This document shows positions 5,342-57,807 of a stretch of 64,000 nt of DNA, one piece after another (position 1 is the first letter of the stretch; each line of letters begins with the position of its first letter). The position numbers and the translations under genes are program-made. This DNA comes from Sphagnum magellanicum (lineage: Eukaryota > Streptophyta > Sphagnopsida > Sphagnales > Sphagnaceae), in assembly GCA_021904315.1 (NCBI GenBank), contig CM038914.1, forward strand, positions 17,905,065-17,969,064. The letters run 5' to 3'. The notes below the pieces were generated by a model, which saw only the letters and a list, made by a program, of their open reading frames with translations, had not been told where the DNA came from and ran no database searches.

Positions 5342-7909
5342 GTGAATGCAAGGTACCCTGACTTCAAGCATAAAAAGACACAAGAGGCACTCTGGCTTCA
5401 GGACCGACAAAACCCTCCATGGGTAGCAACAGAGATGGTGGCAATAGCACCAGGGACTTTACAATTGGACAGTTTTTCATGGAATAAAAGGCTTGCAAGA
5501 TCTGTCAAGGCTGGTCAATATGAAGACACAATCAAGCTTTTCCAACAGATGCAACAAGAAGGTACTTGTCCTGACAAATTCACTTTTGTTCAAGTACTTA
5601 ATGCATGTGCTAACTTACGAGCACTTGAAGATGGGAGGCATGCTCATGAACAGACCATTCAAAGTGGATGTGTGTCTGATATCTTTGTGGGCAGTAGCCT
5701 AGTTCACATGTATGTCAAATGTGGTTGCATGGAGGATGCTATGAGAGTATTCAGCCAGATGCCCTCACGTGATGTGGTATCATGGACTGTCATGATATTT
5801 GGACACATAAGATGTGGGCAAGGGCAGAAGGCCTTGGAGCTGTTTCAACAAATGCAACAGGAAGGTGTGCAACCAAACTCTGTGACTTTTGTGGGGGTCC
5901 TGAATGCATGTGCAAGTTTGGTGGCACTCAAAGAAGGCAGGTGTGCTCATGAGCAGATCATTCAAAGTGGTTGCGAGTCTGATGTCTCTGTAGGGAATAG
6001 CCTTATTGACATGTATGGGAAATGTGGGAGCATGGAGGATGCACGAAGAGTGTTCAATGAGATGCCCTCACGCAATGTGGTCTCTTGGACTACCATAATA
6101 TTTGGATACGTGAGATCTGGACAGGGGCAAAAGGCATTGGAATTATTTCAACAAATGCAACAGGAAGGTGTGAAACCAAATCTGGTCACTTTTGTGGGGG
6201 TCCTGAATGCCTGTGCGAGTGTACTGGCACTTGACGAGGGCAGACGTGCTCATGAACAGATCATTCAAAATGGTTGGGAATCAGATGTTTCTATAGGAAG
6301 TAGCCTTGTTGACATGTACACCAAATGTGGGAGCATGGAGGATGCTTGGGTAGTATTCAACAAGATGCCATCACGGGATGTAGTCTCTTGGACTGCTATG
6401 ATATTTGGACATGTGAAATATGGGCAAGGACTTAAGGCATTGGAATTATTTCAACAGATGCAACAGGAGGGTGTGCAGCCAAACACTGTGACTTTCATGG
6501 GGGTCCTAAATGCATGTGCTAGTCTAGTGGCACTTGAAGAGGGAAGATGTGCTCATGAGCAGATCATTCAAAGTGGCTGTGAGTCAGATGTATCTGTAGG
6601 GAGTAGCCTCATTGACATGTATGCCAAATGTGGGAGCATGGATGATGCTTGCAGAGTGTTTGACAAGATGGTGTCCCGTGATGTAGTCTCTTGGACTGTC
6701 ATGATGTTGGGGCATGTGAAATGTGGACAAGGACAGAAGGCATTGGGACTATTTCAGCAAATGCAACAGGAAGGTGTGCTACCAAATGCTGTGACTTTCA
6801 TGGTGGTTTTAAATGCATGTGCCAGTGTAGCAGCACTTGAAGAGGGAAAGCGGGTTCATGAACAAATCATTCAAAGTAGTTGTGAATGTGATGTCTTTGT
6901 GGGTAATAGTCTAATTGACATGTATGCCAAATGTGGGAGCATGGAGGATGCCTGGAGAGTGTTTAACACAATGCCGTCACGAGATGTGGTCTCTTGGAAT
7001 GCTATGCTTGGAGGATTTGCATTGCATGGGCATGGAGAGGAAGCTCTGGCACATTTTGAAAGAATGTGTGAAGAAGGTATAGAGGTAGATAATGTCACTT
7101 TTGTTTGTCTTCTGTCTGCTTGTAGTCATGCAGGCCTGTTGTGTGAAGGCCTGCGCTCTTTTGGTTCCATGAGCACAGTTCACAAGATTTCTGCAAAATT
7201 GGAACACTACACCTGCATGGTTGACCTTCTTGGGCGTGCCGGCCATCTGCATGAGGCAGAGGATATGATCAAGATGATGCCCTGTAAACCAGATGTGGCT
7301 GTGTGGATGGCCTTGCTTGGTGCTTGCAGAATTCATGGTAATGTGGAAATGGGAGAACGCATTGCAAAGCACATTCTGGAAGTGGACCCTGGAAATGCTG
7401 CAGGGTATGTACTGCTATCAAACATCTATGCTGCTGCTGGCAAGTGGGATCTGAGTGAGAAAGTTCAATCACAGAGAAAGGAAAGGGGTGTGAAGAAACA
7501 GCCAGGTCGTACCTGGATTGAAGTTAATAATGAGGTGCATACATTTGTAGTAGATGATCAAGATCATCCCCAAATCATAGAAATCCGTGCAGAACTGAAT
7601 CGATTGTACGGGCAGATGCAAGAGGCTGGGTATGTGCCAGATACAAAATTTGTGCTACATGATGTGGAGGAAGAAGAAAAGGTGGTTCATTTGTGTCACC
7701 ATAGTGAGAAACTGGCTATTGCATTTGGGCTCATCAGCACACCTCCTGGTACTACACTCCGGATTTTCAAGAATCTCCGAGTATGTGGGGACTGCCACAC
7801 TTCCACCAAGTTCATTGCAAAAATAGTTGGGAGAACAATCATAGTCAGGGATGCCAATCGCTTCCATCACTTTGAGTGTGGTGTTTGTTCTTGCAGGGAT
7901 TATTGGTGA
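5342..7909 (+). CDS. DYW-class pentatricopeptide repeat protein (organellar RNA editing factor)
   Basis: PLS-class PPR protein with a C-terminal DYW deaminase domain. Such proteins are nuclear-encoded, enter plastids or mitochondria, bind a specific transcript and edit C to U. The open frame is 855 codons from 5342. It begins after a stop, at a probable splice acceptor, and the first in-frame ATG is at 5435 (residue 32). Residues of about 45-600 are PPR triplets. The anchor KCG(S/C)M(E/D)DA recurs at 5717, 6020, 6323, 6626 and 6929, exactly 303 bp (101 residues) apart, matching P 35 + L 35 + S 31. E motifs and the PG box ([11 protein letters not shown]) follow. The DYW domain keeps HSE (787-789), CGDC (815-818), a FHHF...CSC zinc site and terminal DYW. 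No internal stop is present. The ending DYW, not a KP-type variant, argues for C-to-U rather than U-to-C editing. The target transcript is unknown. Confidence 0.95.
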
Positions 7910-24250: not shown

Positions 24251-25072
24251 AATTCATATAACAGTAAACCTGGTGGTTTTTTTAACCTTTTCTCCCCCTC
24301 ACTTTTGGCTACTGAAAACCTCCAAAATCACTTATTTGGCGGAATTAAAAATTGTAATGTCGGTTTTTGGCAAAATCTGGCCAAATTAAAAAAAAAAAAG
24401 AACAAGTTTAGTAGAGTCCTGAAAGCCCTGCTTCAAGCCTCAAGGACTAGTTCAAATACCAGCTCTCCAAGCAGCAGCTGTGTGCATCGTGTGCAAGTTG
24501 CAACGTATACATGAGCTCGTAGAACATCTGTTTGACTCCGTCGTCCCTCAACTTCACTTCCTTCTATTTTTGCAGTTCAGTTGTTACTTCTTAGTGTTCT
24601 ATATCCAGCGCTGCCGGGAGACGACGTCCACAACATGGCAACAACAACAGTCAAGTACGTCGATGCTGCATAACTGGCTGTTTCTATACTATAGCTAGCT
24701 AGTTATCTCCTGCTGTGCACTGTAGCTGCTCGTGATGTTGCTAAGTTGTTGCGCTTGATCGTTGTTCTGTGTTTCTCACACAAGTTTTTTTGACATCAAC
24801 TCATCTCCATGAACTAGGCTTCGAGATTAGTATTTCCCCTAAATACATTTCGATAATGAGCAAACGCTGAAGTACCATAACCAGGGTCCATCTGACTATA
24901 GCTGCCAAACGTGTACGTGCAGAGTAGGGTACTAATGCATTTGTGGCGTTTTGGACAGACAAGTCGATCTGAAACTTGCATAGAGAACGATGACGGTAGT
25001 CCTTGCATGAAATAGATTTCGATTGAAGTTGTCATGGACATTGCATAACTATTAACATTGTAGCTTGACACA

Positions 25073-25078
25073 TATAAG
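25073..25078 (+). promoter_or_regulatory. Candidate TATA box (TATAAG) for the secreted SH3-domain gene
   Basis: CATATAAGACC lies about 210 bp before the chosen ATG at 25285. A start site 25-35 bp downstream would give a leader of roughly 180 nt. It sits in a locally CpG-rich stretch. No other support is available. Confidence 0.4.
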
Positions 25079-25284
25079 ACCGGTGTCACGAGACAAACCA
25101 GCTGTAACCAGCTGCACTCTCAGTAACTGTGATCGTTTCTGTTACATTGTTCGTTTTGAAAATTTTCTTTTCATGTAGCATATTTCAAGCTTTAATCACG
25201 AGTGGTGAGAAATTTCATGTCGCGAATATGAGAGTTGAAGGGTGTTTGATCTTCTGGAAACTAAAAACTAAGGTTGGATATTAT

Positions 25285-25608
25285 ATGTGCAGATCATCAC
25301 TGCCTGCCGGTCTCTTATCGGTTGTCATAGCATTTCTTCTGATGACGACCCCGGCTTTATACGTGACCTGCGACATCGTCACGGCTGACGTGAACGCATT
25401 CGCCTGTCCCTATGACGGCTGTGACTATATCGCCACAATTCCGGAAGGGACACCAGTATTCGTATACTGCATAGCTAACGGCGTAGACGTCAACGGTAAT
25501 TCGCAATGGGATTACGTGGGATTAACTAGCGATGGCACCTTAGTTGGCTATGTGAGTGACTATTACGTCGATTGTGACGGATTAGCTTGTGTTGGTCAGA
25601 GTTGCTAA
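25285..25608 (+). CDS. Secreted cysteine-rich protein with a bacterial-type SH3 domain
   Basis: The open frame runs from 25129, but it only looks coding from the ATG at 25285, giving 107 residues. Residues 1-27 form a classical signal peptide: a short basic start (MCRSSLP), a hydrophobic core (AGLLSVVIAFLLM) and a small-residue end. The rest is one domain resembling the SH3_3/SH3b fold of bacterial wall-associated and secreted proteins, with the family hallmarks GTPVFVYC, NGNSQWDYV and GYVSDYYVDC. Six cysteines in the mature part suggest three disulfides, which fits an apoplastic or secreted product. There is no intron and the coding part is markedly CpG-rich compared with its surroundings. 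Binding partner is unknown; SH3b domains often bind peptidoglycan or peptides. Horizontal acquisition is possible but unproven. Confidence 0.75.
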   Translation: MCRSSLPAGLLSVVIAFLLMTTPALYVTCDIVTADVNAFACPYDGCDYIATIPEGTPVFVYCIANGVDVNGNSQWDYVGLTSDGTLVGYVSDYYVDCDGLACVGQSC

Positions 25609-44500: not shown

Positions 44501-47009
44501 TATTAAAAACTGGAAGAGCATAGTGCCAGGAAGACACATTTGAAAATTATTTTGCCAATTTGAAACTCTTTAGATGGTTTTGAGAGTGCACCTTTTGCCT
44601 GACCCAGCTGACCTTGTCATCAGCATAGCGTGGTGCCAGAATACAGCGCACCCCTGTGTTTTTGAAAAACTTCTTTGTTTCTTCATCATGTGTATTCATC
44701 ACCCCATTCTGAAAACAGCAAACATGAAGTTGAGGAACTTAAAACACCTTCACACCTTGAGCCTGGATAAATTCCTTTAAACTTGTGATGACATCACAAA
44801 ACATAGAAAGACTATTCCTTGGTAAAGACACACAAACGTTTCTAGATAGTAGCCAAAATCTAACCTGAAAATAAATTTAAGCACGCAATGAGCTGACAAA
44901 TAGTTGCAGAGCTACTAAGAACATGAAGTCCAAAGGAGATCATTCATACTGTCTTAAGAAGACTGTAATCATTTGAAGTTCTGTCATCCCACTGTAACAG
45001 CAGAACACGGATGCCATCAGCAGACTTCTTCTTCAACAGCTCTCCCAATGTCAAATTCCCACCATCAGGGACTGGCCTGTTGATGTCACGTACAAGCTTA
45101 ATCTTGTCATAAATGGACCACCCTGCTAGATATACCAAGTGATGTGCACCTGCAATGGCAGCACACATTTCCTCCCAACACCGATGATGGTGATACTCAA
45201 CACCACTTTCAAGCCAAATTCGTGGAAGTGTGCTGTCATAGATATGTGTGTCTTGGTAGAGAGTTAAGTCACATCCCTTTCGGAGGGGGAAATATGTGAA
45301 GGGGACCCCAAAAGAGTCTGGCCCCACCCCTTGTGTGTACAAGGGGACCTTTTCAACAGGCTGATAGGATACACGGAGGTGTAACTTTGCACCCGCATGA
45401 CACAGCTTGCCATTACTATTTAGAACTTCAAACCAGTCATCAATGATGTCACCACCTAATAACTGCTCAACTGGAATCTTGATGTCCCCAATATGTTGTG
45501 ACCCCAGCACATCCTGATCTTTGATTGTGAAGACCACCTCATAAACATGATGTGCCACTGGGACTGAAAAATGTTCATTCCATTTGGGGTTTACATTGTT
45601 ACTTATGACTCGAGTGCGTGCCACCCTGGCACCAGCAAGGACAACTATGACATAGGGGTCACTGGTGATCCCTGTCACACTTGCTGCAGCCTCTTTTGCT
45701 TTGGACTTTGCTCTTTGCAGTATGGATGGTAAACTGGATGTGGCTTGCCTAATCTTTTCAGAAAATATGTCCTTGTTGGGCAGGTTTACAGCCTCATAGA
45801 GCACTACATCTAGAGTTCCATGTAATAAGCAGCGCATACTGGAGAAACCAGATCGCCTGGATGACACTGCCATGCGTAGTGAGTCCGATTTTGTGGGGAG
45901 CATCCCTCCAGTAGGACCTGCTATATGCACATGAACACGCCTTTACTCAAAAGCATGAGAAAAAAACCTCTGAGGTACTACTAGCATATAAAAAACCACA
46001 TATTACCATATCAAACCATGAAGATTACAATGGGGATACCTGGATCATTGCTGTAAAGGGGTTGAGAACCATCAAACTGTTGGGACCGGAATGGCGCCTG
46101 TGGCCTTGGCATTACTTGCTCATTCTCAACAAAGGATGAAGCTGCTTAGAATCCAAAGCCAACAAAGTCCCATGGGTTTTGCAGCTGTAGTCAGCTATAC
46201 ATGAATCTAAGAGACACCTCCAGACAGCTGGATCTTGTAACTAAAAGCATGTGAAGTGTTGAAAAATCTTTTAGTCCTAACTCTCAGAGTCCAACATCTT
46301 TCATCTGCTGAGACAGATACATTCATGGTTCAGAAGGTGTGCTTGAGAATCAATTACTGTGTGTCTTGAGGCTGTGTCTGGAAAAGGAAATTTTACAGGT
46401 AGAGAAAGAAATTTGACCTGGTGATAGCCTAGGGTAAGCATCATAGCCCAAACTGTTGGAGCGGAAATCCTGTGCTGGAGCAGACTGACTGCCAATGTGA
46501 AAGCTTCCGCGTGGGGATCCTCCAGTTCGCTGTAAATGTGGTGGCACACCAAACTGGCCTCCTAACCCTCCATCTTCATGAAACCTTGAGTTCCCAGATG
46601 GCAAGGGAGGATATGCCTGGGACTGTTGCATATAATAAGGAGGCACGGGTTCAGTGACCTGGTTATAAGGATATCCTTGAAAATACTGGTTTGATGTGTT
46701 TTCCTGCACATTCACCGGTGGATAAGGTGAAGAGTGCACATCTGGATACATTGAGTTTTCTGGAGATTGTCGAGGCTGATACCCTGCAGGGTTGTAAGAA
46801 TGCACTTTAGGGTACAAAGATCCACTTTCAGATTCCCTTGCTGGTGGATACTGTGCCACATTCGGTACAGGATAACCATAGACATTTTCGAAAAAAGAAT
46901 TGGACCTCAAAGGAGGAGGGTAAGGAGGAGCTGGAGTTTGTGTTCCCCCAGGCCGCATTGGTTGATGCCCCCAGCTTCCTCCACCCCAATTTCCTGAATC
47001 TCCACTCAT
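41505..47009 (-). CDS. PLDB: Phospholipase D, beta/gamma (C2) type, 12 exons
   Basis: Hydrolyses membrane phospholipids to phosphatidic acid, a stress and membrane-trafficking signal; C2-type enzymes need calcium, and beta types PIP2. Exons (descending): 47009-46418, 46141-46040, 45917-44950, 44708-44613, 44422-44228, 44024-43773, 43408-43340, 43173-43026, 42834-42686, 42494-42321, 42140-41943, 41801-41505. All junctions are GT-AG and in phase, giving 1079 residues, close to Arabidopsis PLD beta1. Residues 1-230 are the Pro/Tyr/Gly/Ser-rich extension typical of beta types. The C2 domain spans about 262-410 ([34 protein letters not shown]). The first HKD motif is H595-K597-D602 ([10 protein letters not shown]), the conserved [11 protein letters not shown] follows, and the second is H929-K931-D936 ([10 protein letters not shown]). 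Both catalytic motifs are intact, with no stop or frameshift. Small exons are inferred from splice sites and family alignment. Confidence 0.93.
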
Positions 47010-56413: not shown

Positions 56414-57807
56414 CTACAGTTGCTGAGCACAAGCGTCGTTATCGAGTCCTCCCGGGCCACCGAAATAGAAATAGCTTCCTGATGAAGAGCCGGGATTATT
56501 CCCTGCTTCAAGGTTGTAGCAATTGGCATCAGTCACAGCCGCGTAGCTGAAATCGGCATCATAGAACTTGCCAGAGTAGTCGGCGTATGTGACTTGTTTG
56601 TGGTAAGCGGCAACGGGGAACCCATTTTGTGCAAAGGCACCGGATCCCATCCCTGTGGTTGTGTGCCCATTTGTCCTGTCTGACGGAGCTATTTCGCCGC
56701 CCCATTGTAGCTGATCGGCACCCGTTTGTAGAGTGGTGTAAATCGCTGAAGGCCAGTACCCAACCCATTTGCCTTGGACATTCAACCACCAGCCAGGGGT
56801 CTGAGAGTCGTAGACTATCCTAATCCGCACCTCGTATTCGCTGTTTGCATTCTCACCCAGTGTAGTGTATGGCGCCAGGACTCCTCCTAGTACCCAATAA
56901 CGGTTTACCTGAACAAACCCTGCACAATGTAGATTGTAGCAGCCCGTGCCCTGGTATGCATCCATTGTCCAGTAGATGAAGAGATGAGGAGCTAGAGGGA
57001 AGTTGGACGGATGCAAGGCTGGGTATACGTGCCACCCAGTTTCCGCAGTGTTGAGGTCATCATTTGCATAAGAGCCAGCAAGTACCCACACCTGTGAAAG
57101 ACTGAACTCAGAGTCTGGATCTCCAATGATCGGGTCGTTCACGCTGAGAGTTGTTCCCTGTCCTTTGTATGCTCCCACTTCCCTTGCCATTGAGATGATA
57201 GCATATTCATGTGCAGGTGCACCCAAAGTGTCTGGACGTGAATAATCATCTTCCGGCCGGTGGTGTTTTCTGAAAGCAATCTGTTCTGGTTCGCTTCGTT
57301 GCACTGGGATGGAACCTTCAGGACATCCCCCGTGCTCCCTGGCAAAGGCTTGTGGGTGCGGCTGATCATGATCCACCGGTGCTGAAGAAACATCAACTTC
57401 TTGTAAATGCAAAAGGTCGATCGTACCATGTGGATGATGTGATTCTTGAGAGCAGGGTGATGGGCTGCAATTTGATGTTCCACCGGGACGCAATCTACCC
57501 AGCTTCTATCTGATAGTTGGAATGACTTCACAGCAGGGCCATGTCTAGCTGCTGCAGCTGGTCCACTACTGTTGCTGCTCGGGTACAAATAAGGTTGTAA
57601 TCGTTTCGAACCTCGATCATGACGTGGCAGACTTCTCGACGCTTGAGATGACTGTACAAACAGTAGCAGCTGAATAAATGTGATCAATACAGCAACAATC
57701 CAACGTCTATACGCCAAATTTCTCCTTGCAGCTCCAGTGCCACCGGATAATCGACCAGATCTTTTGAAAGTCTCCATGGAAATTCCTTCTCTCGTGATAC
57801 CTTTCAT
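56414..57807 (-). CDS. Neprosin-family protein (putative secreted glutamic peptidase)
   Basis: Frame one (57807 to 57427) encodes a basic start, a hydrophobic signal/anchor (WIVAVLITFIQLLLFV) and the activation-peptide signature (WVDCVPVEHQ ... HHPALKNHIIHM). Frame two (57361 to 56414) encodes the neprosin domain: GGCPEGSIPV, HEYAI, EFSLSQVWVLAG, HLFIYWTMDAYQGTGCYNLH, CAGFVQVNRYW, GWWLNVQGKWVGYWP and WGGEI. The Glu in AETGW and in WGGEI probably correspond to the catalytic pair of Nepenthes neprosin, which cleaves after proline. The frames join exactly if GTACGA...GATCAG (57426-57362, 65 nt) is an intron, giving 442 residues, a normal length. Otherwise a one-base deletion near 57427 breaks the gene. 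Second possible start: ATG at 57777. The CpG-rich coding region and TATA box argue that it is expressed. Confidence 0.82.

Follow-up and report, generated by a model that had tools for sequence, protein, structure and literature searches.

The cell-wall-binding domain of a fungal muramidase (Moroz et al. 2023, PMC10394673) is an extracellular module that faces the wall and is joined to the catalytic muramidase. According to that paper, Micrococcus cells, but not cellulose, deplete the domain from solution, and the domain binds triglycine in its canonical specificity zone; according to a figure legend, Arg10 of structure 8b2f contacts the triglycine. The disulfides C9-C53 and C33-C72 are given there as conserved in all of the examples that the authors identified, and 8b2f, 8b2g, and 8b2h are listed among the entries of the paper. 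A lone SH3 domain is described for a protein from the lysis cassette of Drexlerviridae phages, for which the authors proposed a role in lysis at bacterial walls (PMC13164509). Standalone SH3 proteins of ~118 amino acids with a signal-like N terminus and one SH3b-type domain are encoded by members of the Bacillaceae (P0002 of Pseudalkalibacillus and loci L008 to L013 of Bacillus and Rossellomorea). The standalone secreted SH3 protein of B. subtilis is named YraI. Other bacterial SH3b modules (L014, L018 to L021, L023, and plasmid loci L002 and L003) belong to the same domain family and have the core cysteine, and the C-terminal tail is present where the fragment reaches it; several are parts of longer proteins, e.g., together with a CHAP or a DD-metalloendopeptidase domain.

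The protein described here is encoded in the nuclear genome of the peat moss Sphagnum magellanicum. Like the fungal domain, it would be an extracellular, wall-facing module, and the two share the motif order GT.V...C..G..V.G...WD...YV.DYYV. The core cysteine of the moss protein matches the fungal site, and its tail cysteine is placed as in the C33-C72 pair reported in the muramidase paper. However, the fungal domain has the C9-C53 pair, whereas both of these positions are occupied by other residues in three moss copies (window, C4, and C8b). The fungal domain also carries the triglycine-contacting arginine and is joined to a muramidase, whereas the moss protein lacks this arginine and is predicted to stand alone, with 111 residues and no catalytic domain. 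Fast divergence of one pair of copies is likewise a feature of the moss proteins, unlike the fungal domain. The Bacillaceae proteins and the moss protein have both the core and the tail cysteines, and identity to the moss protein is 31% to 34% over nearly the entire length in the six Bacillus and Rossellomorea members. The mature part of P0002 has two cysteines, whereas that of the moss protein has seven, and the Bacillaceae genes are intronless and keep the arginine, whereas the moss genes have a predicted intron and no such arginine. The phage protein, by its published description, resembles the moss protein in being a lone SH3 domain.

We analyzed a stretch of 64,000 nucleotides (contig CM038914.1, positions 17,905,065 to 17,969,064), here called the window. 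A preliminary description had reported an open frame at positions 25285 to 25608, encoding without introns a secreted, disulfide-rich protein, and had taken the host for a fern. The frame, with 107 codons and a stop, was confirmed by direct reading, and the host is a peat moss. The frame is best read as containing exon 2 of a two-exon nuclear gene for a small, secreted-type protein, so the gene, as predicted, has an intron after all (Table 1). Exon 1 starts with the ATG at 24635 and ends at the donor caa/GTACGTCG, and the acceptor is TATATGTGCAG/atcatc. Joining the exons keeps the frame and gives the predicted 111-residue protein. The ATG at 25285 would be intronic, because it lies inside a phase-2 intron with an AA/GTA donor whose phase is common to all five family members. 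Of the proposed signal peptide, a hydrophobic, signal-like segment was recovered by hydropathy and not by a dedicated predictor; seven cysteines are located C terminal to it, as the term disulfide-rich had implied.

Table 1. Predicted features of the SH3b-type gene and positions of its family members (window coordinates unless a contig is named)
Feature	Position	Strand	Description
Exon 1	24635..24654	+	20 nt, codes MATTTVK, last codon split, phase 2
Intron	24655..25292	+	GT-AG, 638 nt, phase 2; predicted from sequence
Exon 2	25293..25608	+	Signal-like segment, mature SH3b-type domain, stop
Hydrophobic core, presumed signal peptide (LPAGLLSVVIAFLLM)	25300..25344	+	Hydropathy peak of the N-terminal part (mean 2.49 over 15 residues)
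SH3b-type domain and C-terminal cysteine-rich tail	25387..25605	+	Residues 35 to 107 of the 107-codon frame; hhalign, hmmsearch, phmmer to 8b2f
Duplicated segment near the end of contig C4	22479..26145	+	Two blastn pieces, 87% and 92% identity
C4 copy	C4 at 26.73 Mb (C4:26729274, L006)		Genome search
C8b copy	C8 at 17.38 Mb		Genome search
C16 copy	C16 at 2.63 Mb		Genome search
C15 copy	C15 at 3.71 Mb		Found with the C16 protein, E value of 0.04

Sequence comparisons place the window protein, as a divergent member, in the SH3b superfamily in the wide sense. The resemblance to SH3_3 noted earlier is weak but real, and it stays below the Pfam threshold: for SH3_3 (PF08239), the only family matched by the whole predicted 111-residue protein, the E value was 0.14 and the score 12.8 bits against a cutoff of 27. 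Two of the four paralogues matched SH3_3 at an E value of ≤1 (best, 0.14), none of the 11 genome matches scored above the cutoff (best, 17.1 bits), and the C15 protein matched no Pfam family. In NCBIfam, the best match of the window protein had an E value of 0.013 and 14.9 bits against a cutoff of 240. Among the PDB entries, phmmer matched the window protein to 8b2f, 8b2g, and 8b2h (E values of 0.0017, 0.0024, and 0.0031, respectively), and the top 4 of 17 matches were all fungal, being either SH3-like cell-wall-binding domains or a muramidase that carries such a domain. When four moss members were combined into a profile, it retrieved the same four fungal entries alone at an E value of ≤1 (best, 0.0015). 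The PDB matches are the more independent test of homology, since moss rows were part of the alignment used to collect the bacterial ones; with that reservation, hhalign gave a probability of 95.7 between the moss profile and the bacterial and fungal profile, and hmmsearch with the latter profile scored C8b, the window protein, and C4 at 30.9, 29.8, and 27.9 bits, respectively (best of 2,000 shuffled moss sequences, 9.1). C16 was not among the 12 best rows of this search, and in a smaller search with a bacterial and fungal profile, C15 and C16 scored weakly (11.8 and 5.1 bits). Neither protein had a PDB match by sequence at an E value of ≤1, and both are assigned to the SH3b family through their likeness to the other moss copies. 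Single-sequence AlphaFold modeling gave four strands in residues 46 to 91 at a poor mean pLDDT of 52.

Bacterial counterparts were also retrieved. In a tblastn search of plasmids, one record was retrieved, the 118-amino-acid SH3 protein P0002 (30.9% identity; E value, 0.7), which has a signal-like start and itself matches the fungal domains with an E value of 2.5e-8. An alignment led by P0002 yielded 16 bacterial loci from 41 pattern matches, L014 and L015 being identical in sequence. Ten of the 16 entered the alignments and the tree (L009, L010, L012, L013, L015, and L022 were left out). None of the 201 pattern matches in the first scan of genome contigs, made with P0001, and none of the 97 in viral contigs was confirmed. 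Five phage records (tblastn; E values of 4 to 9) and three plasmid records retrieved with the C16 domain (E values of 0.7 to 3) were taken as chance matches. L023, from a Propionibacteriaceae metagenome-assembled genome, has a long open frame with several SH3b-like repeats; one of these shares 40% identity with the window domain over a length of 52 residues, the top identity over at least 50 residues in that comparison.

The core cysteine is present in all 20 aligned rows (12 bacterial, 3 fungal, and 5 moss rows). The tail cysteine is found in all five moss rows and in all 11 bacterial rows that are long enough; it lies beyond the ends of the three fungal fragments and of the L023 row. The arginine equivalent to the triglycine-contacting residue of 8b2f is present in 15 of 15 bacterial and fungal rows and in none of the 5 moss rows, so the ligand or the binding face must differ in the moss proteins.

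A search of the genome (438,994,042 bases in 31 contigs) identified at least five family members: the window gene (C8a) and the C4, C8b, C16, and C15 copies, five being a lower bound. With a profile built from the other four members, the C15 protein scored 28.2 bits, and the best of 2,000 shuffles scored 10.7. A predicted phase-2 intron with an AA/GTA donor is common to all five (638, 638, 233, 567, and 148 nt). Four of the five have TTTVK at the end of exon 1, in a 23-nt version in C8b and C16, and C15 has an exon 1 of other sequence, yet with the phase and donor of the rest. A degenerate pattern covering exon 1 in its 23-nt form and the donor matched twice in 439 Mb, once each at C8b and C16, and the reversed pattern used as a control matched nowhere; the forward pattern was derived from the copies themselves and cannot match the 20-nt form. 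The shared intron phase and donor in at least four further genes argue that the SH3b-type genes make up an established nuclear moss family. The C4 copy lies ~9.3 kb from the contig end, the last 3 kb of which contain 50 telomere-like TTTAGGG units. Two weak genome matches with internal stops (C15:15055815 and C1:29479265) were dropped, since their translations look like retroelement.

The CpG-rich DNA mentioned in the preliminary description was found in exon 2, where the observed/expected CpG ratio is 1.30 (mean over 316-bp stretches of the window, 0.29), but the enrichment extends to the 70 bp at the 5' end (1.00) and the intron (0.85). Raised CpG is therefore a trait of the entire gene and not of an inserted bacterial ORF. 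The ratio is 0.21 in a PPR gene, 0.24 to 0.27 in two phospholipase-region ORFs, and 0.63 in a neprosin ORF of the same window, so raised CpG is not confined to the SH3b-type gene. The PPR gene (positions 5342 to 7909, plus strand) is an open 855-codon frame with an E motif and a DYW deaminase domain. The neprosin-domain ORF (PF03080; E value, 6e-59) is at positions 56414 to 57493 on the minus strand, and a C2-domain ORF (positions 44944 to 47009, minus strand), together with a proline-rich ORF upstream, looks like a phospholipase D gene. A PPR-related stretch was also seen ~4 kb from the C8b copy, perhaps by chance, as the PPR family is large.

Where the family came from was addressed with an unrooted tree of 19 rows and 94 columns, in which the moss is represented by four members, without C15. 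The four moss rows form one clade (97/99) beside the bacteria and fungi; the fungal rows are placed, with weak support, among actinobacterial ones, and C16 and L023 are among the long branches. The moss proteins were thus not nested within bacteria, the placement proposed earlier as a check on horizontal acquisition, nor within fungi; this and the predicted intron in all five copies speak against a recent bacterial transfer. Any transfer would probably be ancient, given that the five copies are divergent and have an intron in common. An old transfer from bacteria or fungi to the moss lineage, followed by gain of the intron and with a donor-like function such as peptidoglycan targeting, has in our estimate slightly less than an even chance. 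It agrees with the relatives found outside the moss genome, which are bacterial and fungal in collections that comprise no other plant genomes, and with the transfers to bryophytes with possible defense roles that are reported in PMC12890914, whereas the lack of nesting in the 19-row tree counts against it. This is a question of origin and is compatible with either reading of the function discussed below. That the frame is a chance ORF or microbial contamination of the assembly is, by comparison, extremely improbable, and we reject it: the protein is short and misses the Pfam cutoff, but five copies with introns, conserved in splice sites and phase, reside on four contigs of 18 to 27 Mb, and the window also contains plant-type genes (PPR-DYW and neprosin).

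The window and C4 copies are a duplicate pair in which the mature exon is the most diverged of the regions compared within the duplicated segment. Differences number 22 of 346 in the upstream 350 bp, none of 20 in exon 1, which is identical, 24 of 638 in the intron, 3 of 67 in the signal part of exon 2, 47 of 249 in the mature part, and 10 of 297 in the 3' flank, corresponding to 3.8% for the intron and 18.9% for the mature exon. The codon alignment shows 33 replaced residues out of 84. The mature part has 42.67 nonsynonymous and 5.33 synonymous changes (dN, 0.269; dS, 0.090; Fisher P = 0.0055), and its nonsynonymous rate exceeds the intron rate at a P value of 3e-14. Under neutral simulation (kappa of 1, 2, and 4), the probabilities were 0.00025 to 0.011 for the ratio and 0.00175 to 0.027 for the synonymous count. 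A 9-nt indel retains the frame, and both copies have intact frames and all seven mature cysteines. Replaced residues were fewer in residues 73 to 97 (5 of 25) than in the rest (28 of 59; P = 0.027), a post hoc contrast that is not used as evidence. The dN/dS values against the older C8b copy are 0.38 and 0.40, pointing to long-term constraint, and fast change was seen only for the window and C4 pair. We interpret these rates as diversifying selection that has probably acted on the mature part of this one gene pair while the cysteines were kept. PMC9946827 reports thousands of Sphagnum genes with a positive-selection signal in a branch-site test, and positive selection is therefore not rare in the genus. 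An excess across the entire domain, as seen in this one young pair, would be a stronger form of such a signal.

The searches described above support the earlier view of a standalone SH3b-type plant protein that is rich in cysteines and probably secreted. Our preferred explanation, which we hold tentatively, at somewhat below even confidence, is that this small, disulfide-stabilized protein is an apoplastic binder of a variable, probably microbial ligand. The protein would be exported to the apoplast, where a disulfide linking the core cysteine with the C-terminal tail may stabilize its SH3b barrel. The loops of the protein would bind a variable nonself ligand, for which a surface component of bacteria or fungi is the most likely candidate, and the copies may diversify in an arms race, acting as a sensor, decoy, or antimicrobial binder. 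A microbial surface ligand is the first guess because of the Micrococcus depletion and triglycine binding of the fungal relative, and the selection signal, which is suggestive of a contest with microbes, strengthens the case for an apoplastic role towards them. In the main rival reading, the ligand belongs to the plant itself and is perhaps reproductive. Plant reproductive proteins that are secreted and rich in cysteines typically change fast as well, and the moss rows lack the arginine that the compared SH3b domains have in common, as might be expected if the protein served gamete or archegonium recognition, wall binding, or a reproductive or developmental conflict. Nevertheless, we regard such a use as rather unlikely: the relatives that the searches returned belong to bacteria and fungi, several form part of wall-degrading enzymes, and the sequence evidence contains no pointer to reproductive tissue.

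Both of these readings assume that the replacement excess is genuine. It comes from one pair alone, and dS (0.090) is higher, though not significantly, than the intron divergence (0.039; P = 0.17), as could arise from relaxed constraint in one copy or from exon exchange with an unseen paralogue. An artefact of this kind seems to us quite improbable. Relaxation would bring dN near dS and not to three times dS, and neither frames nor mature cysteines have decayed in either copy. A donor exon bringing 33 replacements would be expected to carry high dS, and the window and C4 changes are interleaved: of the nucleotide states shared with C8b, 27 are in the window copy and 15 in C4, with 6 in neither, which argues against a converted block. 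Exon exchange was rejected as the source of the divergence on account of the low dS and the interleaved states. A fuller history that joins the microbial-ligand reading to an ancient origin is possible but doubtful: peat mosses would have acquired, in the distant past, a wall-binding SH3b module of microbes and added an intron and a plant secretion signal, and the resulting arginine-less, seven-cysteine domain would now be a fast-diversifying apoplastic recognition or antimicrobial protein, with one copy less than 10 kb from a chromosome end.

Among the best-listed titles and abstract beginnings of open-licence papers, there was none on a moss or fern SH3b protein, and in the open-licence literature searched we found no description of an SH3b-type domain used in a plant. 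Sphagnum builds peat amid dense microbial communities. With its signal-like N terminus, a domain type that binds microbial walls, and a young pair that appears to be diversifying, the family is a concrete candidate for the moss-microbe interface, and the window and C4 duplicates make the idea of an arms race directly testable.
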